DNA of 64,000 nucleotides from Carallia brachiata. Its lineage: Eukaryota > Streptophyta > Magnoliopsida > Malpighiales > Rhizophoraceae. The notes beneath the pieces were generated by a model, which saw only the letters and a list, made by a program, of their open reading frames with translations, made no database searches and was not told where the DNA came from. The stretch is taken from assembly GCA_021464245.1 (NCBI GenBank), contig JADCRB010000025.1, positions 2,142,193 through 2,206,192 of the forward strand. The letters are read 5' to 3'. Shown here in pieces: positions 7,396 to 50,662 of this stretch. The position numbers and the translations under genes are program-made. Position 1 is the first letter of the stretch. Each line of letters opens with the position of its first letter.

Positions 7396-7779
7396 TTAAA
7401 ATCGACATGCGAGGAATTTGGCGGCAGCGGACAGTTCAGGTGGGATTCGGGTAGGACTGTTTTTAAATCAGTTTATTGCATTTTGGGAGTATTTTTAGGA
7501 GAAAAATTAAATAGTAATATTTATTAATTAGTAATGATATAATAATAAAATGGTATAAATTATTTAATAATTAAAATTTAAAATAAAATAAATAATAATT
7601 AAATATCGTTAAATCAATTATGTTACTATTTTTTTATTACTTAAACTTAAACTACATAATAAAACATTTTTTCTATTAATTCATTAAATTTTGAGCTACA
7701 TAACCAATAATAGCCCTATATATTTCCATAAAATTTATACCTTCTATTTAAGATTACAACTTAGAAATTCAAATAAAAA

Positions 7780-22805: not shown

Positions 22806-22974
22806 CATATAATTGTGAGAATACGATTTATATACAATAATTTAAACTGTTAAATTATAAGGTATATATTTAATTTAAAAAATAAAAAATAAATACATTA
22901 TTAAACTATTGAATTAAATTTGTATATGATCTATGTCTCACGAGGAGTGTGAAAAAACAAAAGATATTAATCAA

Positions 22975-23261
22975 ACAAGGGAATCCTTTGCCGTGTAAGA
23001 ATCCATTGTGAATTTGCAACGAGCGAAACCGCTGCTTGAAAAGGAGTCGGTCTTAGTACCAACGACAAAAGGGTAAGGCACAGTCAGAACAAGAAACATT
23101 CGCGTCTTTGAAGAGCCCCAAGTTGGAAGCATATCTCTCTCAGGTTCTGGGTCGTTCGCCTTCGGATTTTCGACGCTGCAAATTCAGCATAGACTGTCGT
23201 TCTCTGTCTCTCTTTTAAACAGGTTTTTGGTGTCATCTTTCGTCTGGTAATCGCAACAACA
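22975..23261 (+). promoter_or_regulatory. 5' leader and promoter-proximal region of kinase copy A
   Basis: This segment is conserved almost base for base upstream of all three young kinase copies (compare 36004-36290 and 45058-45338), while further upstream similarity fades into AT-rich spacer. It contains GGTAATCGCAACAACA directly before the ATG, giving an A-rich plant-like start context. I see no clear TATA box. A transcription start cannot be placed from sequence alone. Confidence 0.4.
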
Positions 23262-24323
23262 ATGGCAGCCGATGTAATTGTAATCTCTTCATCATCATCC
23301 TCATCCTACTCTCCTCTGTTTCCAAAAGGACAAAAGCGCGGGCCCCTTTGGCATAAGATGATGAAGGCTCGGAAGAAGATTCAAAAAAGCCGTAGCAATG
23401 CCGCTGTGATCAAAGGACACAGAGGTTGTGCTGGAAAGGGCTGCACTGTTTGTTTAGAAAGCTCCAATGGCACTTGTTGGGTTAGAGTATCACGGCTTGG
23501 AGAAGGAGGTTTTGGTACTGTTTTCTTGGCAAAAAGAAGGTCACAGTCACTCGTCAATCATCGAGAATACAACAATAATCTTCCGAATATGTTTGCTGTA
23601 AAATCAGCAACTATGGAGAATTCTATGTCGCTAAAGTTCGAAAAAGAAGTTCTTTGCAAACTTACTGCTAGTCCCCATGTTGTAAGGTGTTATGGGGATG
23701 AGATTACAGAGACTATAGTAGGGGAGAAGATATACAACCTTCTTTTGGAGTATTGTTCTGGTTTGAGCCTGCATCATCAAATAAATGTTTGTGGTCGCGG
23801 TGGATTGCCCGAGTCGAACGTCAAGCTCTACACACGAGACATTGTTCGAGGACTAGAGTATATCCATTCAAGTGGATATGTTCATTGCGACATCAAGCCC
23901 TGCAATATATTGCTTGTACCAGCTGGTACCCAGGATAGGAGTGTAGGTTTTGTGGCTAAAATCGCGGACTTTGGTTTGGCAAAATCGTTGCTTGAAGAGC
24001 AAAAGGGTGATGATAATTTAAGAGGTACATATCTGTATATGTCACCTGAATTGGTTAGAGAAAAGAAACTTGAACGTCCTGTAGATATATGGGCACTTGG
24101 CTGTACAGTTTTAGAGATGATGAGTGGGAAGCCAGCATGGAAGCGTTCTGATAGAACTGATCTTTTGCAAATTATTGGTTATAGTAACAAATTGCCGCGG
24201 ATGCCTAGCAACATACCAGAGAATTGTAAGGATTTCTTGGGTAAGTGTCTTGATAGGAATGCTACTCGTAGGTGGTCTGCTAAAAAGTTGCTGGAACACC
24301 CTTTTATTGCTGGAGATCCGTAG
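23262..24323 (+). CDS. MAPKKK15-21-type protein kinase, intact (copy A)
   Basis: The single-exon ORF encodes 353 residues of a Ser/Thr protein kinase most like the plant MAPKKK15-21 (MEKK-type) group, which phosphorylates MAP kinase kinases, often in abscisic-acid and stress signalling. Seen directly: a Ser-rich N-terminus, a basic stretch (about 30-54), then the glycine loop G-E-G-G-F-G (80-85), the ATP-anchoring lysine in FAVKS (K114), the catalytic loop H-C-D-I-K-P-C-N (208-215), DFG (236-238), the activation-segment end M-S-P-E (260-263), the DIWALGCTV helix and RRWSAKKLLEHPF near the end. HCD instead of HRD is normal in this subgroup, and all catalytic residues are present. The N-terminal extension of about 75 residues before the kinase domain is longer than in classical members and holds C-x4-C-x2-C (56-64). 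The start was chosen because the ATG and leader are conserved in three copies. Family assignment is firm; the exact orthologue is not. Confidence 0.9.
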   Translation: MAADVIVISSSSSSSYSPLFPKGQKRGPLWHKMMKARKKIQKSRSNAAVIKGHRGCAGKGCTVCLESSNGTCWVRVSRLGEGGFGTVFLAKRRSQSLVNHREYNNNLPNMFAVKSATMENSMSLKFEKEVLCKLTASPHVVRCYGDEITETIVGEKIYNLLLEYCSGLSLHHQINVCGRGGLPESNVKLYTRDIVRGLEYIHSSGYVHCDIKPCNILLVPAGTQDRSVGFVAKIADFGLAKSLLEEQKGDDNLRGTYLYMSPELVREKKLERPVDIWALGCTVLEMMSGKPAWKRSDRTDLLQIIGYSNKLPRMPSNIPENCKDFLGKCLDRNATRRWSAKKLLEHPFIAGDP

Positions 24324-24900
24324 GAAAGAAAGTCTGATAGAAGAGTTAAAGGTGATCGGCAATGAAACTATACGTTTGCGGATAGCGCTCGGTGTAAAGT
24401 GCAGATGAAGGGGGTTGGTGGCTAAATCTTAGCATTAAGGAAAGACTCATTCCTGTGTTGAAGGCAAATTGTTGATCGTCAAAGAAGATCAACAAACAAA
24501 ATCATGCTCATTTTCAATGCTCCAATATATCGCGTAGGTGGAAGCAAGGGCTGCAAATTTACGAGGACACAGATTTGGGAAATGTTTGCAAAATCTGGAC
24601 TCCAGGCACATAGTTCTGTTGTCATCAGTAAGAATTGACTTCACCCTGTTGAAGGCTATTTATGAAGCTTGGCTTGGTTTTCCGAGTTAGTCTCAGAAGA
24701 TTTTCAGCAGTAAAGGGGCAATACGGCTGGTTGATTTGGGACCGGAAGAAGCAGAAGGTGCAACAGTTGTTGAGGCATTTGCATAGAAGTTTTCAAAATA
24801 TGTCAATCAAAAGTAACGAGTTATGTTTTTTCCATTTGTATGAATTTTCACGGCAAAGCCGAAGATGTCATGGGCTTAATGTCATAGCATGGATTTAGCT
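24324..24900 (+). pseudogene. Decayed coding-like tail after kinase copy A
   Basis: Downstream of the kinase stop, frames still read like protein in pieces: a segment ending KAIYEAWLGFPS, then GAIRLVDLGPEEAEGATVVEA. The same tail follows copies B and C, and copy C keeps a longer version. It may be the former 3' part of the ancestral gene or of a neighbouring one, now non-coding or 3'UTR. I do not recognise a domain. Confidence 0.35.
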
Positions 24901-26560
24901 TCATTCCAAATGATTTATCAAGTTTATTGCATTTAATCTTCTGTGGTTTAGCCTACTCTGTTTTACATTTTTTGAGTTTCAATTTACACCCATTTTCTCT
25001 AATTTTAGCAATTTGAATTCATTAATTTTAAGACCACTTTCTAATTGTAAAAAATATAACAATAACAATCATAATGATAATAATATTCCAATATGATGAA
25101 AAAATTAATAAAATTCAAATATGACGAAAATTTTATGAGATTCAAATTTTCTAAATATAAAAAAAATTTTAAGAAAAAAAGAATAATAAAAAATTTCAGA
25201 AAAATAAGAAAAAATGATCATGATAGCCAAAAAAATTGAATATCATAATATTTGGAAGAACTCGTGATGGAAAGTTTTAACTGTCAAAACCATAGTGTAA
25301 ATCAAAACTACAAAAAGATATAATACAAAAGAATAAATATAGAAAAAAAGTTAGATGTACTCAATCCCAAAATAACAATTATCTTTGTTCATATGGTTCA
25401 GTGTTTTACTTGGTGAAGACATTTTTGAGCGACATTTTGGTTGATTTCATCCCATCATTTACAAAGTTCTAATTAGTTCTAATTATTGCCAAAGCCAAAC
25501 TTAACATGCATAAGTAACCTAGGTTTTTCCTTTTTTTTTTTCTTTTTTTCTTAAAGTTGTGCCTCTAGCATGTTATAAACTTGCATCGTCATATAAAATA
25601 AACGTAGTTGTATCCAGTGGTCTACAAGCTCTAGTCACTATATCAATTATAACTAGTTTTTTTCCGGTGCTATGCGCGGACTTGATTTTGTTAAAAAACA
25701 TTTACTTATTGTAACGAAATAACAGACATATTCTCTTAAATAACACGTAAAATATATTTAAAAATAAAAACAATTTAAACATGTTACTCATGCTAAAAAA
25801 TTGTATTGAGATTAGTACTATTTATAGTCTCTCATGAAGATTAGTCAACTCAATTTGAAGATAATGCTCATATTATACAATGAATTTGAAAAGTTTTTAA
25901 TTATCATCTGATGTAATAATTTGGTGATTACTCGATATATTTCTTTTAGTCGTGACCCAATTTCGAGTTCCAGCGACTGTACGCAGAAGCAATGCCCTCC
26001 TTGAGCATACCAAGTTGCACCATACTCGCCCAGCTGGTTCAAGACTCGGTAATAGTTATAGTTTACTTGGAGGAGGCTTACAGGAGGCCCTCTCGAACCC
26101 ATTAGTACTTAGGTGGAGAATCCCTATTTGTAAGAAGAGTTGAATAAGGCATATATACAGAAGTTATTTTAGTCTTGACTTAAAAATCTGATAATTGACA
26201 TACCCGCAATGAATTTTTTTTTTTTGGCTTTTAAATAAAAAAACAAAAGTTTTTAAACTATAAACATGGAAATTCTACAAAAAAAAAAAAAAACACAGAG
26301 AGAAACGGTAGGGATTAACTCAGAAACAATAACTTTGATTATGACCTTTCATTACGATTTTTCGATCGGCCTATGCATCAAGAATAATAATTGGCTCTTC
26401 TACATTGCAAATTTTCGAAATACTCTTTCCTTACAGTTTGCTGAACATGCTCCAAAAGGCAATATGTTTGTCTTGAACCTTTGAAGCTATTAATGGTTTC
26501 CAAAGGCAGTACACTGTAGGCATCGGATCAAATTATGCCTAACAAATGCGTGTGGTGTGA
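24901..26560. other. Duplicated 3' flank of kinase copy A, no gene
   Basis: This AT-rich DNA is matched in unit B at about 37920-39580, including poly-T runs and GCCTCTAGCATGTTATAAAC. The patch at 25950-26110 is GC-richer and more diverged between units than its surroundings. ORFs here are not conserved as proteins. Confidence 0.5.
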
Positions 26561-26566
26561 AGAGAG

Positions 26567-27384
26567 ATGGTGAAAATTAAACCTGCATGTTTAATGCCCA
26601 AAGGAGGAAACAGCATCCACATAATTGTCATCAAGGAACTAACCATGATCACACTGTCTATCGGCAAGCTTTCATATGTCACAAGCGCGCAGTTGCCAAT
26701 TGCTTCATATAACGTAATTCATTTGTTAGCACCTTACAATTTTCTTTCCATGGCATTCCATGGCCTTTTGAAGTTGTTGCTGGCTTAAGCTAAGGCGTCT
26801 CACTTTATCAGGATCCACTTTACAAATTATTCTAATCCACCTTTAGGCTTCCCAGCATGAATAGCAATTAAACATTTATACCCTGAAGCTAAAATTTGCT
26901 GTGACTTTGTATCTCTTTGATCAAGATCTTCCTTATCATCGTCATCCCCAAGCAATTCCTCCTGCTACAGGAAGGTGAGTCAGGAAGAAAAAATGGAAAA
27001 GCATGATGGGCTAAAATTGCCATGATCTTCTTCACACACCTTTTCATCATGTAAAATGCTGCCTTTAATCTCGGAGACCTCGCTGCCTCAAGGCTTTCTG
27101 TCAACTGCATTCCTCTTTTGTGAATCCTCTTTCTCCATAATTTCCTTGGCTTCAAGATATTCTTTTGGTGGCTTGGTTGATATGATTATGCATTTCTTCA
27201 AATAGTCTGAGGAGGGAAGTTCTATAAGCATTCTGAACCAGGAGCAAACAGGATGTCTCCAAATGTTTGTGTGATAGATTTGCATTTGAAAATTCAGTTG
27301 ATCATTGGTTCTGAATGAGGCAGAATGTGGGAGATTTTTTACGTATTTTCGACATACTTTCACTGAAATGTTGCATGTATACAT
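26567..27384 (-). pseudogene. Unidentified coding-like segment (unit A copy)
   Basis: Minus-strand frames have coding-like stretches, for example ISTKPPKEYLEAKEIMEKE (about 27130-27190) and KVLTNELRYMKQLATA (about 26700-26745). They are interrupted by stops and frame changes, and could be exons of a decayed gene. Sequence is nearly identical in unit B (39587-40404). I do not recognise the family and see no complete gene. Confidence 0.25.
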
Positions 27385-27712
27385 ATCTCCTGTAGCTCTC
27401 CCTATCTCTATGAGTCTTTGGCTTCCTACTAGCCTTTTTTATCCTGAATATCTGGAGTAAGATGATATTCTAAAGTTATAAAACAGCAAAGAACAAATCT
27501 TTAGACAGGTAGTTGGAGTTCGGAAGTGATGCGTCTAAAGGCAAAGTAAAATATCTCACATGGAAAGTAAGTGGAAAGAGCAAGTAAGATTTAAATAAGG
27601 CCAAATGACCCATAATCCAGGCCAATTGGTTTTGGATAACAAATAGAGTTAATCGCTCTTTTGTGTTGTTGCTTGCTCTCGTATTCGTGAAGTGAGAAGT
27701 CAACTCTAAAGC

Positions 27713-28330
27713 CTAACGTCTCGATATACAAAAGCCGAGCTCGAGTATTCCGCACTGAGATTGTGAGAGCACGTATTTCACATGGCTAAAAATATGTGCA
27801 AGATTGCTTTCCTCTGTATTGAAACGGTCAACTCCAGACTGGAAAAATAGACACGATGTCTCATATGCTAGCATTAAAATAATGAAAACCAAATGTAACA
27901 AAAAGCAACTACTAAAAACATTTTGCTTTCTCACAAATGGATCCAAGTACCCATCTAACAAGATTGAAACTTGGTGTCTGCTGAAATTGTAAATGAACAA
28001 AGGAAAATAATTTTGTTCAGTTCCTGAATCAATTACCAACACAACACCACCATCTATATCAATCCTTTTTTGGCCTACACTTACACCTTCAAGGGTTAGA
28101 GAATAATGTCCATATAAATCTTCAAATGGGGTCGACCAGCCTTCAACTGCCAATTGATTGAAACTATATGAAAGCCAAATGTTGCCAATGCAATATCTAT
28201 TGCCAAGTTTATGATACATAGATATCTTCCGGGCTCCAAGTCCCAATATTCCATCAATTTTCTTGCCACAGTCATCGTTATGGCCTAACAAAATCTGGGC
28301 ATGACAGTAACTGATAATAGTAGAGATACT
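27713..28330 (-). pseudogene. Nepenthesin/CDR1-like aspartic protease fragment (unit A)
   Basis: The minus-strand frame encodes part of a plant A1-family aspartic protease. Visible are KKIDGILGLGARK, HKLGNRYCIGNI, a YSFNQLAVEGWSTPFEDLYG block, GHYSLTLEGVSVGQKRIDID and the second catalytic-site motif VIDSGT. These correspond to the middle and start of the C-terminal lobe in the secreted CDR1/At2g35615-type proteases. The first catalytic Asp, the signal peptide and prodomain, and a recognisable C-terminus are all missing, and residues after VRKQ no longer resemble the family. It is therefore a partial, non-functional copy. Confidence 0.7.
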
Positions 28331-29372: not shown

Positions 29373-29377
29373 GGTTG
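29373..29377. other. Target-site duplication, left (GGTTG)
   Basis: GGTTG directly precedes the left LTR. The same five bases follow the right LTR and occur once at the empty site in unit B. Confidence 0.9.
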
Positions 29378-30365
29378 TGTGAAGCTGTAAATTTCGAGCC
29401 TGTAACAGTTAGACTCAAAAAATACAGAAACAAATTACAATAAAAAAATTGTAAAATAAAAAGAAATTTATGTGGGGTCGATCTTTGGGTAGATCCTCCG
29501 ATTAATGCTCCTGTGTAATTTAGTCAAAGGCCATGAAGGCTTAATCTTGACCGAGAGATGGTGAATTTCCACAGCGTGAACTTGAACTATAGGAAATGGA
29601 TCCCACTGAGGGCCGAGCTTGATCTCAAGTGGATTAGTTGAACTCCGGTGAGGGCCGTAGGAGGCTTGATCCCACTCGGACTGATGGACTTCGGTGAGGG
29701 CCGTAGGAGGCTTGATCCCACTCGGACTGGATGGACCGGTGAGGGCCGTAGGAGGCTTGATCCCACTCGGATTGGATGGACTTCGGTGAGGGCCGTAGGA
29801 GGCTTGATCCCACTCGAACTGGATGGACTTCGGTGAGGGCCGTAGGAGGCTTGATCCCACTCGAATTGATTGGACTCCGGTGAGGGCCGTAGGAGGCTTG
29901 ATCCCACTCGGATATTTAATATCTTGGGTTTTTGATCTAGCGGATCCAACTTAGTGGCAGCTAGAGAGCATACACCCAAAATATTTAGAGAGAGAAAGGA
30001 AGAGATGCAAAGCTTTAGAAGATGAATGATTTGCTTTGCTTGGGATGGTTTGAAAGGCTTTGAGGGGATCCCTATTTATAGGGTTTTGGGGGAGGATGGA
30101 TGCCAAAATTGTATGACTTGGATCATACATGGCAAGGGCCCTCTTTGGTGGTTGAATTTTGACATTTTGCAATCAAATGGAAATTAAAATTTCCATATGA
30201 TTCATCATGAGTAGGATCCTACAAGGCAAGGACCCTCTTTGGTGGTTGAATTTTGACATTTTGCATGGTCATCAACCAAATGGAAATCATCATTTTCATA
30301 TGCATGCACTTGTTGCTTTCATGTAGGGCATGCATTGATTTTTTTTTTTTTTTTTGGTGTTTACA
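29378..30365 (-). repeat. 3' LTR of the element (left in the window)
   Basis: It runs from TGTGAAGCTG to GGTGTTTACA. By eye it differs from the other LTR at only about three substitutions and four or five short indels plus poly-T length. It holds six units of a 47-bp tandem repeat (29642-29911) and a two-copy repeat of about 85 bp (30127-30300). On the minus strand a TATAAATA box lies at 30073-30080. Confidence 0.9.
29642..29911. repeat. 47-bp tandem repeat, six units, in the left LTR
   Basis: Each unit contains GGTGAGGGCCGTAGGAGGCT followed by TGATCCCACTCG and a variable linker. The same six units in the same order of variants occur in the right LTR. Reading frames through the array give repetitive SSLLRPSP-type peptides and are not evidence of a protein. 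Confidence 0.9.
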
Positions 30366-30380
30366 AATGCCCCCACTTCA
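30366..30380 (-). other. Polypurine tract next to the 3' LTR
   Basis: On the minus strand the bases read TGAAGTGGGGGCATT immediately before the LTR start TGTAAACACC. This is the expected place for the plus-strand primer of a minus-oriented LTR element. Confidence 0.65.
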
Positions 30381-31323
30381 AGGGTCGGTAAGGAAGAATT
30401 TTACCGTAATGATCCGAACCGAGTCTTGAAGTCCAGTTTGAAACTTGAGATGTCTTAATGAACGTTGAATGTTGGAGTCTTCTATCTTTGACCATGCCTG
30501 CTGTTGTTGGATCGCAATAGGAATCCGATACGATCTTGAGAAGGTTAGCAGCCCAGCCAATATAAAAATTGAAGTCTTGGCTCCAGGTGCGTTCGAGCTT
30601 CCATAGCCCGCAAAGGATTTTTTATATCTCTTAAAGTTCCAGAGCTCTGGTGAGGATGATCCAGTAGGCAAAGAACTTGAACCTCCCCAAGAGGAAGGCC
30701 CAGGACCTTGGAACTTCAAGACCGGCTCACAGAGAGACTGACTGTAGTGATGATTTCCAAGTCTGCTTCGACGTAAGGAGAGTAGTTGGAACTTCCCTGT
30801 ACGTCGCTGCATCCAAAGAAAGATTAGGATAATTGCAGCTTCTCATCCCTCTGTGGTAGATGTGAACTAAGGAGAGTAGTTGGAACTCCATGACACCGAT
30901 GGCGTTGGAGACTGAGTTTCGAGGATCCCTCGAAGAAGACTACTCCCTCTTTTCTTAGCTCGTGCGCCTCCAACTTCTTGATCGAAGAACTTCCTGAGAC
31001 AAGTGCAGAGACTAGCCATTTTTTTTTTTTGAGAAAGAAGAGCTGAGGGGTGAATATTACAACTCGGGCATGCAGGATATATATACAAATAATAAAGAGT
31101 TTTTTTTTTTTTTTTTTGAAAAGTCAAAAAAAAAGGTATGCAGAATCGGGTAGGGCCATCCACGTCCCTTTCCTGCATAAGAGACAAAAGAGGCAGCGGC
31201 TGACGCGTGTCACGAAAGTCGTTACCGTGTGTGGCAGAAGTCGTTGCCGTGTGCTGCGGAAGTCGTTGCCGCGTGCTGCGGAAGTCGTTGCAGAAGTCGT
31301 TGCACCTTATCTTGTCGGCCGTC
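30381..31323 (-). other. Internal region 3' of the WOX ORF, no recognised protein
   Basis: Two minus-strand ORFs (30378-30812, 144 codons; 30867-31355, 162 codons) lie here. Neither shows gag, pol or a known domain. A phrase GGAGAGTAGTTGGAACT occurs twice (about 30777 and 30872). A 22-bp repeat (CGGAAGTCGTTGC type) covers 31204-31304. The ORFs could be part of the 3' untranslated region of the WOX transcript. Confidence 0.4.
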
Positions 31324-31935
31324 CTAGCGGGGCCCGAGGCGCAGCTCCAAGTCAAGCTCGACCTCGTCTGGTGGGCCGATGATGTTGACGTCGCTTTCCG
31401 GCTGGTTGATGCTGCCGGAATATTCTGGAAAGAGAGGCAAAATTTCGCCGGAATGACTCCTGTGTGCTAGAAAAATTCCTCCTAGACTTAAGTATCTAGG
31501 AGGGATGAACCCTTGGCTGACTCCGTGAAACCACCAGGACCAGTATGTATGCTCCCATATGCTACGGCTTTGATGAACGTACCGTGGAGAGACCATTGCA
31601 GTGGTAGAACTTGGGCCGGCTTCATTTGAGGGTGAAGCTGTACTGGTGAGATCTACTATAGGAACAACAGGCTGTGCTTTGGAAATACCATCTCTCAGCG
31701 CCACTGTTTCCCTATGTCTCCGATTCTGGAACCAAAAATATACATTTTTTCCTTCGACTGCCCCTAGCGGGCGAAGTCGTGAGACAAGTTGGAGAATCTG
31801 TGTAGAGTTAGGGACAATACCTCCATCGTTGTAGAAGACTTCCTCCAAAATTTGCAGTTGTGCCATGGTCGGTTGCCACCTTGTGCGAGGTGACCTTTCT
31901 TCTCCTTTGTCTTGAGGTTCTGCAACTGGTTCCAT
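31324..31935 (-). CDS. WUSCHEL-related homeobox (WOX)-like protein inside the LTR element
   Basis: The intact intronless ORF encodes 203 residues. A WUS-type homeodomain spans about residues 17-77: it opens TRWQPTMAQLQILEEVF and ends with EGKNVYFWFQNRRHRE, the characteristic recognition helix of WOX proteins. A WUS-box-like motif E-I-L-P-L-F-P-E lies at 164-171, and an EAR repression motif L-D-L-E-L-R-L at 194-200, three residues from the end. HD, WUS box and EAR in this order are the architecture of the WUS clade, nuclear transcription factors that repress target genes and maintain stem cells; here they are compressed into a short protein. The start ATG at 31933-31935 has a good context (AAAGATGG), and no upstream ATG occurs before the in-frame stop. 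Absence of introns fits capture through an RNA copy. It lies on the sense strand of the element, so the LTR promoter could drive it. Function is inferred; the domain call is firm. Confidence 0.85.
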   Translation of the reverse strand: MEPVAEPQDKGEERSPRTRWQPTMAQLQILEEVFYNDGGIVPNSTQILQLVSRLRPLGAVEGKNVYFWFQNRRHRETVALRDGISKAQPVVPIVDLTSTASPSNEAGPSSTTAMVSPRYVHQSRSIWEHTYWSWWFHGVSQGFIPPRYLSLGGIFLAHRSHSGEILPLFPEYSGSINQPESDVNIIGPPDEVELDLELRLGPR

Positions 31936-32050
31936 CTTTCTTGCGGCAGAGGAGCAAAGGTCTTGGTATGTGGTGAAGATCGGTTGAGACTGATGCTGAC
32001 TTTCAGAATCAAACCCTCCGTCGGTTTTATATTTTTGGGCCGTTCACAGT

Positions 32051-32256
32051 TTATACTCATGCGGGCCAGGAGTATGTTGAACTGTAGTGTCGCCTTTTAT
32101 ACTCGTGCGAGGCAGGAGTGTTGAACTATGATGTCGCCTTTTTTACTCGTGCGAGGCAGGAGTGTTGAACTGTGACGTCGCCTTTTATACTCGTGCGAGG
32201 CAGGAGTGTTGAACTGTGATGTCGCCTTTTATACTCGTGCGAGGCAGGAGTGTTGT
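32051..32256. repeat. 44-bp tandem repeat upstream of the WOX ORF
   Basis: About four and a half units with the core TTATACTCGTGCGAGGCAGG and GTTGAACTGTGATGTCGCC follow each other with few differences. In element orientation they lie in the leader between the primer-binding site and the WOX start. No coding is suggested. Confidence 0.85.
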
Positions 32257-32475
32257 GTTGAACTGCTGAGCTGTTGAGCTGGCGAGCTGGTGAGCTGTTA
32301 AGCTGATGAGTTGTTAAGCTGCTTGGCTGCTGAGCTGCTGAGCTGTTTGGCTGCTGAGCTGCTGAGCTAGTGAGCTGTTGAGCTGCTGAGTTGTTTGGTG
32401 AGCTGCTGAGCTGTTTGAGTTGGTGAGCTGCTGAGCTGTTGAGCTGGTGAGCTGTTTGGTGAGCTGTTGAGCTGT
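32257..32475. repeat. GAGCTG(C/G/T)T-type short tandem repeats
   Basis: The phrase GAGCTG recurs at a spacing of about 9 bases (CTGAGCTGTTGAGCTGG and variants) over more than 200 bp. It is followed by looser GGATTTGGGTTTTGAG-like repeats to about 32780. No protein is convincing. Confidence 0.8.
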
Positions 32476-32813
32476 TGACTTGAGTTTTGATTCAGGGTCT
32501 AGGCTTTGCCCCCGAATCTGGATTTAGGCTATGAGTTGGAACTTGGATTTGGGTTTTGAGCCCGAGTTTAGATTTGGTGAATTTGGGCTTTGGGCTAGGG
32601 TTTGAGTTTAGGCTTTTTGGGCCTGGATTTGAATTTGGGCTTTAGGCCCGAGTTTGAATTTGGATTTGGATTTTGAACTAAAATTTGGGTTCGGACTTGG
32701 ATTTTGCCCCCGAATTTGGATTTGTTGGGTTTTGAATCGGGGTTTGAGATCTGCCCCCGAATCTAGATTTGGATTTTGTGGAAGGGTTCTGAACTTGCAC
32801 ATAAGTTTCAGAC

Positions 32814-32965
32814 ATTTTCTTTTCTTTTTTTTTTCTTTTTTTTTGGCTTTTTTTTTTCGTGCTTTTTTTTTTTGCACTTTTTTTTTTTTGCTTTTTTTTT
32901 GTTTGCACTTTTTATTTCCTTTTTTTTTTCTTTTTTTTTTGTCTTTTTTTTGTTTTTTTTTTTTT
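32814..32965. repeat. Polypyrimidine tract (polypurine on the sense strand of the element)
   Basis: About 150 bases are almost pure T with scattered C and G on the plus strand. ORFs across it encode only Lys or Phe runs and are artefacts of composition. Confidence 0.8.
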
Positions 32966-33378
32966 ACACAGTAAATTTTAGAAGTTTACCATTTGACCGA
33001 ACCAGGTCGGGATGCGTTGACAGCATGCAAGCGTAATTGACGTAGGCTTCTAAACCAGGTATAGCCCGTCCCAGTTGGAAGTGAGCTTGTCGCAGAATCG
33101 GTGTTTGTGTCGCTCTACTGGTCCAGTTGGATGAAAACTTTGTCCATGCACGAGTTTGCGAACCTACGTACTCAAGTAGGATGATTAATGCAGGCGATTG
33201 AACAGTCGTCCTTTTACTGGTGGCGATAGTCTTGTTCGTCTTTAGTGTCACCGATACGCCGGATTCCTGCCCTCTAGAGTTGTGTTGGTGTTGGCCATTT
33301 CACGGCCCATAGGCCATGAAATGGCCGTTGTGCTACCAACTTTTTTTTTCTAAGGAGCAAAAGATGGGAGGTAGAGTT

Positions 33379-33396
33379 GTCCCACCGAGCGTGCCA
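33379..33396 (-). other. Primer-binding site of the LTR element
   Basis: On the minus strand, five bases after the LTR end, the sequence reads TGGCACGCTCGGTGGGAC. It starts with TGG, complementary to the CCA end of a tRNA, and the rest fits a tRNA 3' arm. An arginine tRNA is my guess from the pattern; the tRNA was not verified. Confidence 0.7.
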
Positions 33397-33401
33397 AAAA
33401 T

Positions 33402-34390
33402 TGTGAAGCTGTAAATTTCGAGCCTGTAACAGTTAGACTCAAAAAATACAGAAACAAATTACAATAAAAAAATTGTAAAATAAAAAGAAATTTATGTGGG
33501 GTCGATCTCTAGGTAGATCCTCCGATTAATGCTCCTGTGTAATTTAGTCAAAGGCCATGAAGGCTTAATCTTGACCGAGAGATGGTGAATTTCCACAGCG
33601 TGAACTTGAACTATAGGAAATGGATCCCACTGAGGGCCGAGACTTGATCTCAAGTGGATTAGTTGAACTCCGGTGAGGGCCGTAGGAGGCTTGATCCCAC
33701 TCGGACTGTATGGACTTCGGTGAGGGCCGTAGGAGGCTTGATCCCACTCGGACTGGATGGACGTCGGTGAGGGCCGTAGGAGGCTTGATCCCACTCGGAT
33801 TGGATGGACTTCGGTGAGGGCCGTAGGAGGCTTGATCCCACTCGAACTGGATGGACTTCGGTGAGGGCCGTAGGAGGCTTGATCCCACTCGAATTGATTG
33901 GACTCCGGTGAGGCCGTAGGAGGCTTGATCCCACTCGGATATTTAATATCTTGGGTTTTTGATCTAGCGGATCCAACTTAGTGGCAGCTAGAGAGCATAC
34001 ACCCAAAATATTTAGAGAGAGAAAGGAAGAGATGCAAAGCTTTAGAAGATGAATGATTTGCTTTGCTTGGGATGGTTTGAAAGGCTTTGAGGGGATCCCT
34101 ATTTATAGGGTTTTGGGGGAGGATGGATGCCAAAATTGTATGACTTGGATCATACATGGCAAGGGCCCTCTTTGGTGGTTGAATTTTGACATTTTGCAAT
34201 CAAATGGAAATTAAAATTTCCATATGATTCATCATGAGTAGGATCCTACAAGGCAAGGACCCTCTTTGGTGGTTGAATTTTGACATTTTGCATAGTCATC
34301 AACCAAATGGAAATCATCATTTTCATATGCATGCACTTGTTGCTTTCATGTAGGGCATGCATTGATTTTTTTTTTTTTTTGGTGTTTACA
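33402..34390 (-). repeat. 5' LTR of the element (right in the window)
   Basis: The LTR has the same ends and internal arrays as the left LTR, including six 47-bp units (33665-33939). In the sense direction transcription would start in this LTR and run leftward toward the WOX ORF. The leader from the primer site to the WOX ATG is about 1.4 kb. Confidence 0.9.
34100..34107 (-). promoter_or_regulatory. TATA box of the 5' LTR
   Basis: TATAAATA followed by GGG lies on the minus strand within CCCTATAAATAGGGATCC. It is a near-ideal plant TATA box, about 290 bases inside the LTR, in the orientation needed to transcribe the internal WOX ORF. Confidence 0.65.
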
Positions 34391-34395
34391 GGTTG
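34391..34395. other. Target-site duplication, right (GGTTG)
   Basis: GGTTG directly follows the LTR end TTTACA and continues into CTCCTCTGACC, as at the empty site at 43024. Confidence 0.9.
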
Positions 34396-35990
34396 CTCCT
34401 CTGACCTCAGACGATGAGTGAAATCTTGGAGTTAGGGAGATTGTAAAAGGAAGTAAGGATTGGTGGCAGACGATTGTAACGATTTTGGGTTCAGGAGTGT
34501 TTGATTTAATTTTTAGTGAGTGTACATTATCTTATTTAATAAAAAGGAAAAAAAAGATATTTAATTAATGTTTTGTTAGATTTTATTGTTTTTGATTATT
34601 ATTGTTATCATTAATTGTTGATTATTATTATTATTTATTGTTGTTATTGATATGTAAAATAAAAATATGGTATTTGGTTTAATTAAGAGTAATTATTGCT
34701 AATTAAATAATAAATAAATTTTTTTTGATATTTTATTTTTATTTTAGTATAATAATTAATTTTTTTAATTTTAATTAATATAAATTAGTTTTATAAAAAT
34801 ATATCTTATTTACTATAAATAAGAATTTATTAAATATATGATATGAATTTCAACTTAAATTTATATTAAATATAATTATTTTTATAAATATTATTTTTAC
34901 TATGTAAATTAGTATGTTTAAAAAAAATATTACTTTTATTGTGTACATTAGTAGTTTTACAATAAAAATAAAAAAAACAAGAAATGGTAAATTATTATTT
35001 ATTAATAAAATAATGTTATTTTATTATTTATTACTTTACTGTTTATGTAGAAAAAAATTTAAAAAAACGTAACAAGCACATTGTACAAGCACCGCACAAT
35101 GCAGAAAAAGTTGATTGGTCTCTCCTCACCGCGCGTTGTGCATGCATCGTCACCACCTGACATGTGGTGCGCTGTTGTAGTTCTCAGGACAATTTGGTGA
35201 GTTTCTTTTTATCAACTGATGAAAATAAAAAATAATTTAAAATTATTCTATTTGAGGTAAACAGTACCCTAACACCTAAATAAAAAATTTAACGAAACAC
35301 CCACTAAACTTTTACTTTACTTTTTAAGTTGTCCTTTACTTCAAATAGTAGTTAAAAAATAAGCTTTAATTATTTTTTTAGATGCAACAACTGATGATAA
35401 TATTTTTCTTAACTAAATTACTCTCAATAATAATAATTTAGTTTATTCATATGTTTTCCTTTTTGTATATTTTTGTTTTAATTTTTTACATGATTAACCG
35501 TATGACTAATTGTAATGAATTTGAAACTGCATAGTATCTTTAATCCTCAAACATAGTATCTTTAATCCTCAACATTTTTATTTTATTTGAATTTATCTAC
35601 CTTTTTTTTCTTTCCTTGAATTTTTTAAAAAAAAATTATAAAAGGTAATAAAGAAATTGGGTTAAAAAATTAAATATTTTTTAAAAAAATAGAATTTCAT
35701 ATTTTTTTCTTTTATTTTTTCTTTTGTTTTAACAAAAAGTTTTATAGTAAGTTTCTAAAATAAAAATATAATATATTAAATAGTTATTTTACTATTTTAA
35801 TAACAACTAATTGCTGTTAGTTTAACAAAACATTTAATTTAAGTATAGTGTCTACGTAATAACTTAAATCGTTAGATCAAAAAATATGTGTTTAATTTAA
35901 AAAATAAAAAATAAATTAACAATTAAATACTGTTAAATTAAATTTATGCATCATGCATATCGGAGTAAAAATGACAAAAAAAAAACAAAA
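34396..35990. other. AT-rich spacer of unit A, no gene
   Basis: The spacer is very AT-rich and is matched by 43029-45045 in unit B, apart from a MITE and small differences there. I see no coding region in it. Confidence 0.6.
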
Positions 35991-36290
35991 GATATTAATA
36001 AAAACAAAGGGAATCCTTTGCCGTGTAGGAATCCATTGTGAATTTGCAACGAACTAAACCGCTTTTTGAAAAGGAGTACGTCTTAGTACCAACGACAAAA
36101 GGGAAAGGCAGAGTCAGAATAAGAAACATTCTCGTCTTTGAAGAGCCCCAAGTTGGAAGCATATCTCTCTCAGGTTTTTGGTCGTTCGCCTTCGGATTTC
36201 GACGCTGCAAATTCAGCATACACTGTTGTTCTCTGTCTCTCTTTTAAACAGGTTTTTGGTGTCATCTTTCGTCTGGTAATCGCAACAACA

Positions 36291-37348
36291 ATGGCAGCCG
36301 ATGTAATTGTAATCTCTTCATCATCATCCTCATCCTACTCTCCTCTGTTTCCAAAAGGGCAAAAACGCGGGCCCCTTTGGCATAAGATGATGAAGGCTCG
36401 GAAGAAGATTCAAAAAAGCCGTAGCAATGCCGCTGTGATCAAAGGACACAGAGGTTGTGCTGGAAAGGGCTGCACTGTTTGTTTAGAAAGCTCCAATGGC
36501 ACTTGTTGGGTTAGAGTATCACGGCTTGGAGAAGGAGGTTTTGGTACTGTTTTCTTGGCGAAAAGAAGGTCACTGTCACTCGTCAATCATCGAGAATACA
36601 ACAATAATCTTCCGAATATGTTTGCTGTAAAATCAGCAACTATGGAGAATTCTATGTCGCTAAAGTTCGAAAAAGAAGTTCTTTGCAAACTCACTGCTAG
36701 TCCCCATGTTGTAAGGTGTTATGGCGATGAGATTACAGAGACTATAGTAGGGGAGAAGATATACAACTTCTTTTGGAGTATTGTTCTGGTTTGAGCCTGC
36801 ATCATCAAATAAATGTTTGTGGTCGCGGTGGATTGCCCGAGTCGAACGTCAAGCTACACACGAGACATTGTTCGAGGACTAGAGTATATCCATTCAAGTG
36901 GATATGTTCATTGCGACATCAAGCCCTGCAATATATTGCTTGTACCAGCTGGTACCCAGGATAGGAGTGTAGGTTTTGTGGCTAAAATCGCGGACTTTGG
37001 TTTGGCAAAATCGTTGCTTGAAGAGCAAAAGGGTGATGATAATTTAAGAGGTACATATCTGTATATGTCACCTGAATTGGTTAGAGAAAAGAAACTTGAA
37101 CGTCCTGTAGATATATGGGCACTTGGCTGTACAGTTTTAGAGATGATGAGTGGGAAGCCAGCATGGAAGCGTTCTGATAGAACTGATCTTTTGCAAATTA
37201 TTGGTTATAGTACAAATTGCCGCGGATGCCTAGCAACATACCAGAGAATTGTAAGGATTTCTTGGGTAAGTGTCTTGATAGGAATGCTACTCGTAGGTGG
37301 TCTGCTAAAAAGTTGCTGGAACACCCTTTTATTGCTGGAGATCCGTAG
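36291..37348 (+). pseudogene. MAPKKK copy B, frameshifted
   Basis: Translation follows copy A closely from the ATG through the glycine loop, the FAVKS lysine and the CYGDEI region. A one-base deletion near 36767 (AACTTC against AACCTTC) then ends the frame about 160 codons in. A two-base deletion near 36855 restores the frame through HCDIKPCN, DFG and MSPEL, and a further one-base deletion near 37211 breaks the last 40 codons. If the deletions are real, no functional kinase results; if they are consensus errors, this is a second intact gene nearly identical to copy A. One substitution (SQS to SLS near residue 95) is shared with copy C. Confidence 0.8.
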
Positions 37349-39586
37349 GAAAAGAAAGTCTGATAGAAGAGTTAAAGGTGATCGGCAATGAAACTATACG
37401 TTTGCGGATAGCGCTCGGTGTAAAGTGCAGATGAAGGGGGTTGATGGCTAAATCTTAGCATTAAGGAAAGACTCATTCCTGTGTTGAAGGCAAATTGTTG
37501 ATCGTCAAAGAAGATCAACAAACAAAATCATGCTCATTTTCAATGCTCCAATATATCGCGTAGGTGGAAGCAAGGGCTGCAAATTTACGAGGACACAGAT
37601 TTGGGAAATGTTTGCAAAATCTGGACTCCAGCTAGTTCTGTTGTCATCAGTAAGACTTGGCTTCACCCTGTTGAAGGCTATTTATGAAGCTTGGCTTGGT
37701 TTTCCGAGTTAGTCTCAGAAGATTTTCAGCAGTAAAGGGGCAATACGGCTGGTTGATTTGGGACCGGAAGAAGCAGAAGGTGCAACAGTTGTTGAGGCAT
37801 TTGCATAGAAGTTTTCAAAATATGTCAATCAAAAGTAACGAGTTATGTTTTTTCCATTTGTATGAATTTTCACGGCAAAGCCGAAGATGTCATGGGCTTA
37901 ATGTCATAGCATGGATTTAGCTTCATTCCAAATGATTTATCAAGTTTATTGCATTTAATCTTCTGTGGTTTAGCCTACTCTGTTTTACATTTTTTGAGTT
38001 TCAATTTACACCCATTTTCTCTAATTTTAGCAATTTGAATTCATTAATTTTAAGACCACTTTCTAATTGTAAAAAATATAACAATAACAATCATAATGAT
38101 AATAATATTCCAATATGATGAAAAAATTAATAAAATTCAAATATGACGAAAAATTTATGAGATTCAAAATTTCTAAGTATAACAAAATTTTTAAGAAAAA
38201 AAGAATAATAAAAAATTTCAGAAAAATAAGAAAAAATGATCATGATAGCCAAAAAAATTGAATATCATAATATTTGGAAGAACTCGTGATGGAAAGTTTT
38301 AACTGTCAAAACCATAGTGTAAATCAAAACTACAAAAAGATATAATACAAAAGAATAAATATAGAAAAAAAGTTAGATGTACTCAATCCCAAAATAACAA
38401 TTATCTTTGTTCATATGGTTCAGTGTTTTACTTGGTGAAGACATTTTTGAGCGACATTTTGGTTGATTTCATCTCATCATTTACAAAGTTCTAATTAGTT
38501 CTAATTATTGTCAAAGCCAAACTTAACATGCATAAGTAACCTAGGTTTTTCCTTTTTTTTTTCTTTTTTTCTTAAAGTTGTGCCTCTAGCATGTTATAAA
38601 CTTGCATCGTCATATAAAATAAACGTAGTTGTATCCAGTAGTCTACAAGCTCTAGTCACTATATCAATTATAACTAGTTTTTTTCCGGTGCTATGCGCGG
38701 ACTTGATTTTGTTAAAAAACATTTACTTATTGTAACGAAATAACAGACATATTCTCTTAAATAACACGTAAAATATATTAAAAAATAAAAACAATTTAAA
38801 CATGTTACTCATGCTAAAAAATTGTATTGAGATTTGTACTATTTATAGTCTCTCGTGAAGATTAGTCAACTCAATTTGAAGATAATGCTCATATTATACA
38901 ATGAATTTGAAAAGTTTTTAACTACCATCTGATATGATAATTTGGTTGTTATTCGATATATATCTTTTAGTCGTGACTCGATTTCAAGTTCTAGCGACTG
39001 TACGCAGAACCAATGCCCTCTTTAAGCATACTGAGTTGCACCATACTCGCCCAGCTGGTTCAAGACTCGGTAATAGTTGTAGTCTACTTGGAGGAGGCTT
39101 ATAGGAGGCCCTCTTGACCTCATTAGTACTTAGGTGGAAAGTCCATATTTATAAGAAAAGTTGAATAAGATATACATATAGGAATTATTTCGGTCTTGAT
39201 CCAAGAATTTGATAATTGATATACCCGTGATGAATTTTTTTTTTTTTGTGTTACAAAAAAAAAAGAAAAGTTTTTAAACTATAAACATGGAAATTCTACA
39301 AAAAAAAAAAAAAAGGAGAGAGAAACGGTAGGGATTAACTCAGAAACAATAACTTTGATTATGACCTTTCATTACGATTTTTCGATCGGCCTATGCATCA
39401 AGAATAATAATTGGCTCTTCTACATTGCAAATTTTCGAAATACTCTTTCCTTACAGTTTGCTGAACATGCTCCAAAAGGCAATATGTTTGTCTTGAACCT
39501 TTGAAGCTATTAATGGTTTCCAAAGGCAGTACACTGTAGGCATCGGATCAAATTATGCCTAACAAATGCGTGTGGTGTGAAGAGAG
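37349..39586 (+). repeat. 3' tail and flank of kinase copy B
   Basis: Near-identical to 24324-26566. The coding-like tail ending KAIYEAWLGFPS is also present here (to 37712), as is the stretch corresponding to 24662-24898 (37684-37920). The part at about 38940-39180 is more diverged from unit A than its surroundings. Confidence 0.6.
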
Positions 39587-40404
39587 ATGGTGAAAATTAA
39601 ACCTGCATGTTTAATGCCCAAAGGAGGAAACAGCATCCACATAATTGTCATCAAGGAACTAACCATGATCACACTGTCTATCGGCAAGCTTTCATATGTC
39701 ACAAGCGCGCAGTTGCCAATTGCTTCATATAACGTAATTCATTTGTTAGCACCTTACAATTTTCTTTCCATGGCATTCCATGGCCTTTTGAAGTTGTTGC
39801 TGGCTTAAGCTAAGGCGTCTCACTTTATCAGGATCCACTTTACAAATTCGTCTAATCCACCTTTAGGCTTCCCAGCATGAATAGCAATTAAACATTTATA
39901 CCCTGAAGCTAAAATTTGCTGTGACTTTGTATCTCTTTGATCAAGATCTTCCTTATCATCGTCATCCCCAAGCAATTCCTCCTGCTACAGGAAGGTGAGT
40001 CAGGAAGAAAAAATGGAAAAGCATGATGGGCTAAAATTGCCATGATCTTCTTCACACACCTTTTCATCATGTAAAATGCTGCCTTTAATCTCGGAGACCT
40101 CGCTGCCTCAAGGCTTTCTGTCAACTGCATTCCTCTTTTGTGAATCCTCTTTCTCCATAATTTCCTTGGCTTCAAGATATTCTTTTGGTGGCTTGGTTGA
40201 TATGATTATGCATTTCTTCAAATAGTCTGAGGAGGGAAGTTCTATAAGCATTCTGAACCAGGAGCAAACAGGATGTCTCCAAATGTTTGTGTGATAGATT
40301 TGCATTTGAAAATTCAGTTGATCATTGGTTCTGAATGAGGCAGAATGTGGGAGATTTTTTACGTATTTTCGACATACTTTCACTGAAATGTTGCATGTAT
40401 ACAT
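39587..40404 (-). pseudogene. Unidentified coding-like segment (unit B copy)
   Basis: Nearly identical to 26567-27384, with the same interrupted minus-strand frames. Identity reflects recent duplication rather than selection. The family is not recognised. Confidence 0.25.
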
Positions 40405-40603
40405 ATCTCCTGTAGCTCTCCCTATCTCTATGAGTCTGTGGCTTCCTACTAGCCTTTTTTATCCTGAATATCTGGAGTAAGATGATCTTCTAAAGTTATA
40501 AAACAGCAAAGAACAAATCTTTAGACAGGTAGTTGGAGTTCGGAAGTGATGCGTCTAAAGGCAAAGTAAAATATCTCACATGGAAAGTAAGCGGAAAGAG
40601 CAA

Positions 40604-41330
40604 GTAAGATTTAAATAAGGCCAAATGACCCATAATCTAGGCCAATTGGTTTTGGATAACAAGTAGAGTTAATCGCTCTTTTGTGTTGTTGCTTGCTCTC
40701 GTATTCGTGAAGTGAGAAGTCAACTCTAAAGCCTGACGTTTCAATATACAGAAGCCGAGCTCGTGTATTCCGCACTGAGATTGTGAGAGCACGTATTCCA
40801 CATGCGCTAAAAATATGTGCAAGATTGCTTTCCTCAGTATTGAAACGATCAACTCCAGACTGGAAAAATAGACATGATGTCTCATATGCTAGCATTAAAA
40901 TTATGAAAACCAAATGTAACAAAAAGCAACTACTAAAAACATTTTGCTTTCTCACAAATGGATCCAAGTACCCATCTAGCAAGATTGAAACTTGGTGTCT
41001 GCTGAAATTGTAAATGAACAAAGGAAAATAATTTTGTTCGGTTCCTGAATCAATTACCAACACAACACCACCATCTATATCAATCCTTTTTCGGCCTACA
41101 CTTACACCTTCAAGGGTTAGAGAATAATGTCCATATAAATTTTCAAATGGGGTCGACTAGCCTTCAACTGCCAATTGATTGAAACTATATGAACGCCAAA
41201 TGTTGCCAATGCAATATCTATTGCCAAGTTTATGATCCATAGATATCTTCCGGGCTCCAAGTCCCAATATTCCATCAATTTTCTTGCCACAGTCATCGTT
41301 ATGGCCTAACAAAATCTGGGCATGACAGTA
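40604..41330 (-). pseudogene. Nepenthesin/CDR1-like aspartic protease fragment (unit B)
   Basis: Same fragment as at 27713-28330, with KKIDGILGLGARK, GNRYCIGNI, the LTLEGVSVG block and VIDSGT. It carries an additional nonsense change: the codon before STPFE is TAG here and TGG in unit A (near 41157). A hAT-like MITE is inserted immediately upstream (41333). Catalytic site 1, the signal peptide and the C-terminus are missing, so it is non-functional. Confidence 0.7.
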
Positions 41331-41332
41331 AC
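41325..41332. other. Target-site duplication of the hAT-like MITE, left
   Basis: ACAGTAAC here is repeated at 41953-41960. Unit A has a single copy in CATGACAGTAACTGATAATA. Confidence 0.85.
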
Positions 41333-41952
41333 TATAGGTGTCAAAACGGGTCATCGGGTTGGGTTCGGGTTGGGTCACTTCGGGTTCGGGACACTTCGGG
41401 TCGGGTTACTTACGAGTCAAGTTATCTTCGGGTTATTTTGGGTTGGGTCACTTCGGGTTCGAGTCGGATTCGAGTCAACTCACGGGTTGGCCACGTCATC
41501 AAAAATGATGACGTGACATTTTTTATTAAAAATTTTAAAAATTTAAAAATTTCAAAAATTTTACAAAAAATTCTTAAAAATCAAAGAAAATCATATGATT
41601 GAAAAATAATTGAAAATTTTTCTTTTAAAATATTTTAAAAAATTAAAATAAAATTTAAAACTGTATAAAAAAATTTCAAAATATTCTAAAAAAATTTATA
41701 ATTAAGATTTATATTGAAAATAATATAATATATACTTTTTATAATATAAAATATGCTAAATTTTTTCATTTTATTTTTTTGTTCCCTTAAGAAAAAAAAA
41801 AGTTCGGGTCAAACGGGTTGGGTCGGGTTTGACCCAAAGATTTTCGGGTCATTCGGATTCGGGTTATTTCGGGTTATGTTATCCTTCGGATCGTATTTTT
41901 GCGGGCGGGTTCAGGTCAACCCATCGGGTCGGGTCAGATTTTGACACCCCTA
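41333..41952. mobile_element. hAT-like MITE, 620 bp, with 8-bp target duplication and empty site
   Basis: Ends are TATAGGTGTCAAAA and, reverse-complemented, TAGGGGTGTCAAAA (12 of 14 match). An exact 8-bp duplication ACAGTAAC flanks the element, and unit A preserves the uninterrupted site near 28312. Subterminal regions consist of clustered TTCGGGT and GGGTCGGGT motifs on both sides, likely transposase-binding repeats, around an AT-rich middle. No transposase is encoded. Relatives lie at 20196-20717 and 21260-22805. Confidence 0.85.
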
Positions 41953-41960
41953 ACAGTAAC

Positions 41961-43023
41961 TGATAATAGTAGAGATACTACAGCAAATCAAAATAATAAC
42001 TAATTAGGCAGCCTAATAGTGACTGCCACTGATACTAATCATAAAGCAAGTCACTTTGCTGTCCTCGGCGCACAGCAGTCACAAGGAGGCATTGTACATC
42101 TTAAAACAAAAACCTTGATTCACAGAACGTGTGAGAAAAGAAATTAAAATGTCAGAAAAATGGTAAGGAGAAAAGCGCTATTCGGAAATCTTATAAAACC
42201 TTGATTCTATTGTATTGATATGAACGATATTGTTCATAAAACTAAGAGATCTCCATTTACCAGTGATCACTAACCTAATCAGAATGCTTCCCCGCCTAAA
42301 ACTGCAAAGGGTTAGAATGTTAAGCGCATGCATATATATATATATATCCAGCTAGATAAGAAAAAACAACAATAGTTTGGGTATTAATGAGCAGATGTAG
42401 CATCACCACATTATGTTTTACTGAAAGAAAAAAAGAAACCCAGCCAACTAATTTGAATCGAATATTGCATTCTTGGTTGAGGTCAATTCAATGGTTTGGT
42501 TCCATCTGACAAAAACTAAACTAAACAGAGTGGTGGCCTCACCATGTCCAATTACGTTAGTGGCTCAAGCTTTCATAAACCAACAAACTTCATCCTAAAA
42601 AAAAAAAAAAGGCTTACTAGCCATATTAGACAAATTTATCGTCATCGTTAGATCAATTTGCTATTAAGAAACTCTAGAAATCCTTCCTCTATTGAAACAA
42701 CTTCAATGGTTGTGCTTACATTTTCATGGATCCTACAATCTATCACCACAAAATTATCAATCAAAAGCAAGCAGAATCTTCAAAGAAACGCAGCAGACAA
42801 AAAGAATTTTTTTAAAAAAATATATAAAAACAGATTACACACATTCCCCAAAATGGACTCTGCTTTATAGCTTAGATTTTACAAAATCACAGATTTCTGC
42901 ATTGGCGGTTTGCGAAATACACGGATAAAAAATAAATAAATAAATAAAACGAAAGAGAGAGATAGGTGACTCAAGCTTTTCTTTCGATACAATTGATAGA
43001 GATAAGCAGCAGTTGCGCCTGTG
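41961..43023. other. Spacer of unit B up to the empty LTR-element site
   Basis: Matches 28313-29372. It contains a (TA)n run near 42340 and no gene. It ends at the uninterrupted GGTTG (43024-43028) where unit A carries the LTR retrotransposon. Confidence 0.5.

Positions 43024-50617: not shown

Positions 50618-50662
<45 letters not shown>

Follow-up and report, generated by a model that had tools for sequence, protein, structure and literature searches.

The window analysed here, a 64,000-nucleotide stretch of Carallia brachiata DNA, harbors an LTR retrotransposon of 5013 bp (positions 29378-34390) bordered on both sides by the target site duplication GGTTG (left copy 29373-29377, right copy 34391-34395). 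The 5' LTR (989 bp, 33402-34390, minus strand) begins with TG, ends with CA and is 98.99% identical over 992 aligned columns to the 3' LTR (988 bp, 29378-30365, minus strand), the differences consisting of three transitions in 985 columns (0.3% divergence) and seven gap columns. The polypurine tract AAGTGGGGGCATT (30366-30378, minus strand) adjoins the 3' LTR, and a primer binding site (PBS)-like sequence, TGGCACGCTCGGTGGGAC (33379-33396, minus strand), lies 5 nt past the 5' LTR; because the former stands before the left LTR and the latter after the right LTR, the minus strand is the sense strand of the element, and the open reading frame described below is in sense. The PBS-like sequence starts with TGG at the expected place and is a candidate primer binding site, and the junction of polypurine tract and LTR (AAGTGGGGGCATT followed by TGTAAACA) is also present in L059, the sole pol-bearing copy inspected. 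Each LTR contains tandem repeats of 47 bp in about six copies (29617-29913 and 33667-33939). The original prediction of an LTR element with intact ends, a target duplication and near-identical LTRs is borne out, and an exact empty site accompanies these features: a tandem duplicate (41953-43861) carries a single GGTTG at 43024-43028, so the insertion is younger than the segment duplication. If between 7e-9 and 1.3e-8 substitutions accumulate per site each year, the LTR divergence gives an insertion age of roughly 0.1-0.2 million years.

The surrounding DNA includes a tandem array of protein-kinase segments (22836-28316, 35858-41336, 44368-46556 and 17042-18854) that are 97%, 95% and about 81% alike, with an intact 353-aa frame in the kinase copy at 23262-24323 and split or truncated copies at 36138 and 45339. 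One duplicate contains a 616-bp insertion (41337-41952) with a 9-bp flanking repeat, ACAGTAACT, and inverted ends, TAGGTGTCAAAA and TTTTGACACCCCTA; it is missing at the matching place near 28304-28316 and looks like a small DNA transposon. Imperfect palindromes of about 510, 400 and 105 bp (6891-7401, 43904-44304 and 50588-50692, respectively) are possibly foldback elements, and a piece of a PORR-domain gene (55992-56708) and a cytochrome P450 gene (62356-63527), presumably CYP78A-like, show that the locus is genic plant DNA.

Pfam searches of the six frames of the element's internal region, with stops replaced by X, identified neither gag nor pol, as originally proposed, and the sole domain above the cutoff was a homeodomain. 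This domain belongs to an ORF of 203 codons on the minus strand (31324-31935), identified by ORF calling and homology, which starts with ATG and continues in a single uninterrupted frame, in agreement with the open sense-strand frame first described; the plus-strand frame across the same interval contains stops. Its length is weak evidence of coding, as 14 of 1000 Markov sequences generated from a model of the internal region reach 203 aa. The ORF is preceded by a leader characteristic of the short element type (31936-33401, minus strand) and followed by a domain-free stretch of 958 nt up to the 3' LTR (30366-31323, minus strand) that is common to the pol-bearing type described below and 85-99% identical in 20 fetched copies. 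A retrocopy nested in the element with a poly(A) tail and its own target duplication was considered and rejected; an A18 run begins at 31117 on the sense strand, but a search upstream found nothing of at least 6 nt that repeats the sequence following this run. A TRP28-type antisense ORF was also sought in the internal region of the short element, with no Pfam match on either strand, and a scan of viral and prokaryote contigs with the ORF and an LTR pattern returned no relatives.

The homeodomain occupies residues 17-76 of the predicted protein (31708-31887, minus strand; Pfam PF00046, E=2.6e-9) and matches two structures in the PDB, WUSCHEL (E=6.7e-16, 29/63 identical) and STENOFOLIA (WOX1; E=1.2e-13, 30/64 identical), with no further distinct chain sequence at E<=10. 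The alignment with WUS is ungapped and that with STF requires one gap in the first loop, giving the element homeodomain a WUS-like loop length. WUS is likewise the best-scoring of nine WOX homeodomains, with identity about equal for WUS, STF and WOX3. Beyond the homeodomain are a WUS-box-like ILPLFP, in which LPLFP spans residues 166-170 (31426-31440, minus strand), and an EAR-type LDLELRL at residues 194-200 (31336-31356, minus strand), both recognized by motif match. The consensus sequences of these motifs are TLxLFP and LxLxL, respectively (PMC4901127, PMC13362244), and corepressor recruitment is a known activity of both (PMC4901127). The hallmarks thus stand in the WUS order that had been claimed for them: when residues 79-203 were shuffled, both motif types appeared in the right order in only 6 of 100,000 sequences, with LxLxL alone in 5.8% and LxLFP alone in 0.3%. 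Among 19 aligned ORFs chosen for their readable frames, LxLFP, the C-terminal LxLxL and WFQN of the homeodomain are each present in all 19, and 11 have the canonical TLxLFP. A Pfam EAR match at residues 149-161 (E=0.017) fell under the cutoff and was disregarded, the NCBIfam collection gave no match to the protein, and an AlphaFold model computed without an alignment was uninformative (mean pLDDT 36.5).

The recognition helix reads NRRHRE or NRRSRKK in element proteins versus NHKARER in host WUS, and the DNA specificity of the element homeodomain may differ from that of host WUS. The NRR of helix 3 resembles non-modern homeodomains, and EAR motifs are reported in other homeodomain classes (PMC4901127), which lends some color to an assignment to another homeobox class, such as HD-ZIP, KNOX or BEL, in which LPLFP and LxLxL arose by chance. 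Against such an assignment are the restriction of PDB matches at E<=10 to WUS and STF, the EGKNV sequence, the WUS-type loop, the rarity of the two ordered C-terminal motifs and a position on the modern-WOX side of a tree built from WOX rows only, and we give it almost no credence.

We searched the host assembly directly (337.5 Mb, 164 contigs). With the ORF protein as query, the best 150 of 2306 loose candidates were scored, and 137 of these 150 are free of inside stops; one group is 90-100% identical to the window ORF, another 81-85%, and at least 11 places among the matches listed have 100% identity and the top score. A second ORF variant again returned at least 150 places (best 150 of 2316). 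Among the best 150 of 1395 matches to the WUS homeodomain, nine are host modern-clade places with 66-84% identity to Arabidopsis WUS and 141 others show 52-58% identity; all 21 of the latter that were fetched (L038-L058) match the element ORF. When the ORF and WUS-homeodomain searches are pooled with one further search, at least 304 distinct places with an ORF or homeodomain are counted across 91 contigs, a total in which some of 43 places contributed by the further search may be host genes. The ORF is thus carried by many copies, one of the checks suggested for it at the outset, and LTR pairs are visible around several near-identical copies.

To which kind of element does the ORF belong? Of 49 element loci examined, L001 and L009 coincide and L006 corresponds to the window element itself, leaving 48 distinct loci drawn from the best-scoring matches, so that the proportions below are not genome-wide. 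In 33 of the 48, the ORF is preceded by an integrase encoded on the same strand; the short-type leader is present in 14, including the window element, and a single locus (L040) has neither leader nor integrase. Four of the 20 fetched 7-kb copies (L009, L013, L026 and L027) have the window's leader and LTR, and the other 16 have in common with it only the final ~138 nt of the leader, the ORF, the sequence that follows the ORF and a related LTR end. One locus is all N over its first part (L023:1-2320), and its upstream region was therefore judged in part only. Ten flanking ORFs were searched with Pfam, and eight, from eight pol-type copies, contain pieces of RVT_1, RNase H, RVT_3, Integrase_H2C2 or rve; nothing was found in one ORF of L012 and one downstream ORF of L026. 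An 818-aa ORF of L028 contains, in order, RVT_1 (its end only, under the cutoff), RT_RNaseH, RVT_3, Integrase_H2C2 and rve, corresponding to the reverse transcriptase-RNase H-integrase order of Ty3/Gypsy elements, and RVT_1 is above the cutoff in flanking ORFs of L020 and L015. RVT_3 follows RT_RNaseH in L028, L016, L020 and L024, with E values from 5e-24 to 5e-25. The Tat/Retand side of plant Gypsy elements is marked by an additional RNase H of archaeal type, placed after the first RNase H and ahead of integrase, and by this domain order the pol-bearing relatives would fall within the Tat/Retand-type lineage.

Because integrase precedes the ORF on the same strand in pol-type copies, the ORF occupies the position of retroviral env, in sense. 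The same arrangement emerges when the integrase is used as the query: around the best 98 of 3684 candidates, 29 of them stop-free, a listed ORF lies within 2.6 kb downstream in 34 cases versus upstream in one, and nine additional places have an ORF downstream, bringing the number to 43 of 98. At six further integrase places (C1, C114, C128, C3, C91 and C8), inspected by eye among the first listed, the integrase is followed by the TATA module described below. In the upstream stretch of L059, the sole one searched, no gag domain was recognized, and the sequence past the LTR end of this copy contains no PBS-like site. L028 and L059, which share contig C17 and orientation, were considered as a tandem with one common LTR, an arrangement dropped because the sequence past the L059 LTR end is unlike an element start.

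Comparison of copies (L010-L028, L042 and L051 versus the window) reveals mosaics of two ORF variants across residues of about 35-150, with near-identical ends; their third helices read VYFWFQNRRHRET and FYWFQNRRSRKK. The mosaics suggest template switching between subfamilies. Length varies near residue 181 through short Asp-rich repeats (DA, DI, DVDV etc.) ahead of the EAR motif, as compared in L015-L020, L024-L026, L028, L042 and L051 versus the window.

The relationship of the element ORFs to host WOX genes was assessed in a tree of 27 homeodomain rows. All 13 element rows group in a single clade (96/92), on the same side as modern WOX; a 93/89 split divides this side from one intermediate-type host gene and a pair of host WOX13-like genes. 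No host row falls within the element clade, whose stem measures 0.87 changes per column. The tree contains WOX rows only, with an unsettled bootstrap and flagged long branches. The original assignment agrees with all three comparisons, as the PDB matches, the nine-WOX scores and the tree fit the homeodomain to WOX, best to WUS, and the WUS-type loop length points to WUS as a candidate sister. We also considered that a single copy might be identical to a host WOX exon; no near-identical exon was found among the host matches, and the nine host modern-clade homeodomains fall outside the element clade. A recent one-off transduction of a host WOX transcript by this single short element, to which the uninterrupted ORF in a young insertion would be suited, is refuted by the copy number and the homeodomain tree; with hundreds of places, integrase upstream in most inspected loci and an element clade deeply diverged from the host WOX genes identified, we regard it as exceedingly improbable. 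What stands of the proposed gene transduction is a WUS-type gene inside an LTR element; what falls, given the 33 of 48 loci with integrase upstream, is its capture by the short element of the window.

The host genes also bear on the route of capture. In the host WUS gene L029, the homeodomain frame stops before ETLPLFP...LELSLN, which is encoded ~1.2 kb downstream in another open frame, and in L032, L033, L035, L036 and L037 the WUS-box motif is in another frame or past the end of the homeodomain frame; the same frame scan gave no readable pair of homeodomain and WUS box in L030, L031 and L034. An intron between homeodomain and WUS box is therefore likely in six of the nine host genes. Because the element ORF joins a homeodomain and a WUS box that are split in these six, its organization suggests capture via spliced RNA. 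Several host WOX genes are paired, as after whole-genome duplication, namely L029/L030, L031/L032, L035/L037 and L060/L061, which we take to be WUS, WOX1/STF-like, WOX4-like and WOX13-like, respectively. Among known elements, Bs1 captured exons only, and capture of spliced RNA is reported for Bs1 and TRIM cases (PMC4717578).

We next consider whether the ORF is maintained. The intactness of the single copy in the window was dropped as an argument for selection because the insertion is young, and the analysis rests on comparisons between copies. These were found by protein similarity, a procedure that favours intact, similar ORFs and biases dN/dS downwards. By the Nei-Gojobori method, 19 ORFs (171 pairs) have a median dN/dS of 0.42 in the 139 pairs with dS >0.05, and pooled pN/pS comes to 0.33 for the homeodomain, 0.66 for the central part and 0.54 for the C-terminal part. 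Individual pairs that include the window ORF give dN/dS values between 0.30 and 1.36, the highest being that of L018 on 11 differences; L020, with 0.98, has a short patch of altered residues. Substitutions were also counted along the branches of a tree of 33 sequences, with expectations per mutation type and 5000 neutral draws, a count that mosaic copies weaken. On internal branches, omega is 0.41 in the homeodomain (16 of 5000 neutral draws as low), 1.11 in the part that follows and 0.79 over the full ORF (426 of 5000 as low); on terminal branches the corresponding values are 0.51, 0.79 and 0.70. Of 165 changes on internal branches, one is to a stop, versus 14 of 320 changes on terminal branches. 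The homeodomain is under purifying selection, with omega about 0.4, and constraint is detected there only. The dN/dS comparison between copies that was suggested at the outset thus gives a ratio below 1 in the homeodomain, with selection undetected in the rest of the ORF.

These values also bear on the possibility that the ORF is a passenger, a WUS-like sequence captured and amplified without benefit and intact since its copies are young and similarity-picked. The near-neutral internal-branch omega outside the homeodomain, the modest value for the whole ORF, the 0.3% LTR divergence, the many places at full identity and the ascertainment by protein similarity are all consistent with this account. 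The constraint on the homeodomain is not, as it is evident both on internal branches and in pN/pS across variants at dS of about 0.2-0.28; nor are the retention of LxLFP and LxLxL in every aligned ORF, the survival of the homeodomain along a long common stem, and the retention of the ORF by the short type, which in the window is without gag and pol. We therefore consider a passenger unlikely, and the ORF is best read as an accessory gene that a Gypsy family has carried for a long time.

An accessory gene of this kind may possess its own promoter. The window element has a TATA box in its LTR (TATAAAT, 34101-34107, minus strand), as originally noted, and the view that this box is aimed at the ORF requires amendment by an internal double-TATA module that accompanies the gene. 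This 38-nt module, GAGTATAAACTGTGAACGGCCCAAAAATATAAAACCGA (32021-32058, minus strand), is a putative ORF promoter located 86-123 nt upstream of the ATG; it occurs at 830 genome places at <=3 mismatches, and a reversed control occurs at 0. Beside it is a TATA-bearing tandem array of 44 bp in 4.6 copies (32050-32255, minus strand), with TATAAAAGG at 32233, 32189 and 32101. Among 28 chosen rows (the window and 27 loci), TATAAAA is present at about -96 in all 28, a second TATAAA near -120 in 27, and the last 110 nt before the ATG are free of ATG in 27; a transcript of the window element started in the LTR would carry nine upstream ATGs in the leader. Divergence between copies in the TATA stretch is 0.030 versus a median of 0.064 for 44-nt windows, and an exceptionally conserved promoter is unsupported at that strength, since the stretch is not among the lowest-divergence windows. 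Taken together, these features support, short of proof, a role of the 38-nt module as the internal promoter of the ORF. A separate search for enrichment of WUS-type sites in the LTR found no excess (1 versus 0.63 expected).

Intact ORFs accompanied by TATA modules at many loci might also be expected if the plant had domesticated some element copies as regulators, with selection acting via the host. No single conserved locus stood out, however, and the many near-identical copies, several with LTR pairs, resemble ongoing transposition; between-copy constraint is moreover what element-level selection would be expected to produce. We judge a host-serving role very improbable.

The reading that we favour, and hold to be probable, is that a WUS-clade gene was captured once by a Ty3/Gypsy ancestor and kept as a sense accessory gene encoding a mobile WUS-like repressor. 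A single capture, probably of a spliced WUS-like mRNA, would have occurred in the ancestor of a Ty3/Gypsy family with two RNase H domains, and the gene would have been retained in sense, downstream of integrase and ahead of the 3' LTR. On this reading, the window element is a young, non-autonomous 5.0-kb derivative without gag and pol that retained the gene. Transcription from the short internal double-TATA promoter, from the LTR or from both would yield a small nuclear protein, whose homeodomain may bind WUS-type or shifted sites and whose WUS-box and EAR motifs may recruit TOPLESS-type corepressors. The likeliest benefit to the element would be a means of controlling transcription, its own or the host's, in the meristem cells from which the germ line arises.

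Capture of host genes by plant LTR elements, and the presence of extra ORFs of unassigned role within them, are already on record. The additional ORFs of the plant Gypsy elements Retand, Grande and RIRE2 are described, as here, between pol and the 3' LTR, with DNA binding suspected, in non-chromovirus Gypsy elements with tandem repeats in the same region and with relatives missing some domains (PMC11963269, PMC7264820). Those with known domains (TRP28 and others) are reported as antisense (PMC11963269, PMC7264820), in contrast to the present ORF, which is in sense, encodes a recognizable host-type transcription factor and has its own TATA module. Orchid Gypsy elements are likewise described with a host-derived extra ORF that diverged after capture, although the gene is an ALKBH5-type RNA demethylase and not a developmental homeobox repressor; the same orchid survey reports that other plant LTR elements contain a B3 transcription-factor domain, and the term 'homeo' is absent from its main text (PMC9289625). 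Host gene sequence is similarly reported inside maize Bs1 and LTR elements of rice and sorghum, with 672 LTR-captured genes in rice and 1343 in sorghum; the captured segments of Bs1, unlike the present ORF, are not full-length, and 'homeobox' is absent from the main text of the rice and sorghum paper (PMC13317346, PMC3726574). Modern-clade WOX proteins and WUS are described with the same succession of homeodomain, WUS box (TLxLFP, for which the window ORF has ILPLFP) and EAR motif and, for WUS, the same homeodomain length (PMC4901127, PMC13362244, PMC8557698), whereas the element version is mobile, multi-copy and encoded in a single frame, with an altered recognition helix and no host WOX row in its clade. 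A search of open-licence PMC literature by title and start of abstract found no WUS or WOX gene inside a retrotransposon, which is not proof of absence.

A bolder proposal, which we offer tentatively and consider possible without favouring it, is that the family's third gene, a WUS-derived repressor with its own promoter, mimics a stem-cell master regulator; by reprogramming or marking the stem cells of the meristem, it would allow new insertions to enter the germ line. The short derivatives lacking gag and pol would then act as mobile cassettes of a regulatory gene and spread WUS-like genes by the hundred, in greater number than the host's own WOX genes. Surveys of the WOX family in this plant, as well as its WUS-based expression or ChIP data, may confound host genes with hundreds of element-borne ones. 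If our interpretation is true, a sense homeobox gene under constraint in a Gypsy family and its short derivatives would resemble the regulatory or oncogene-like genes of retroviruses, and whether a retrotransposon steers the meristem becomes a directly testable question.
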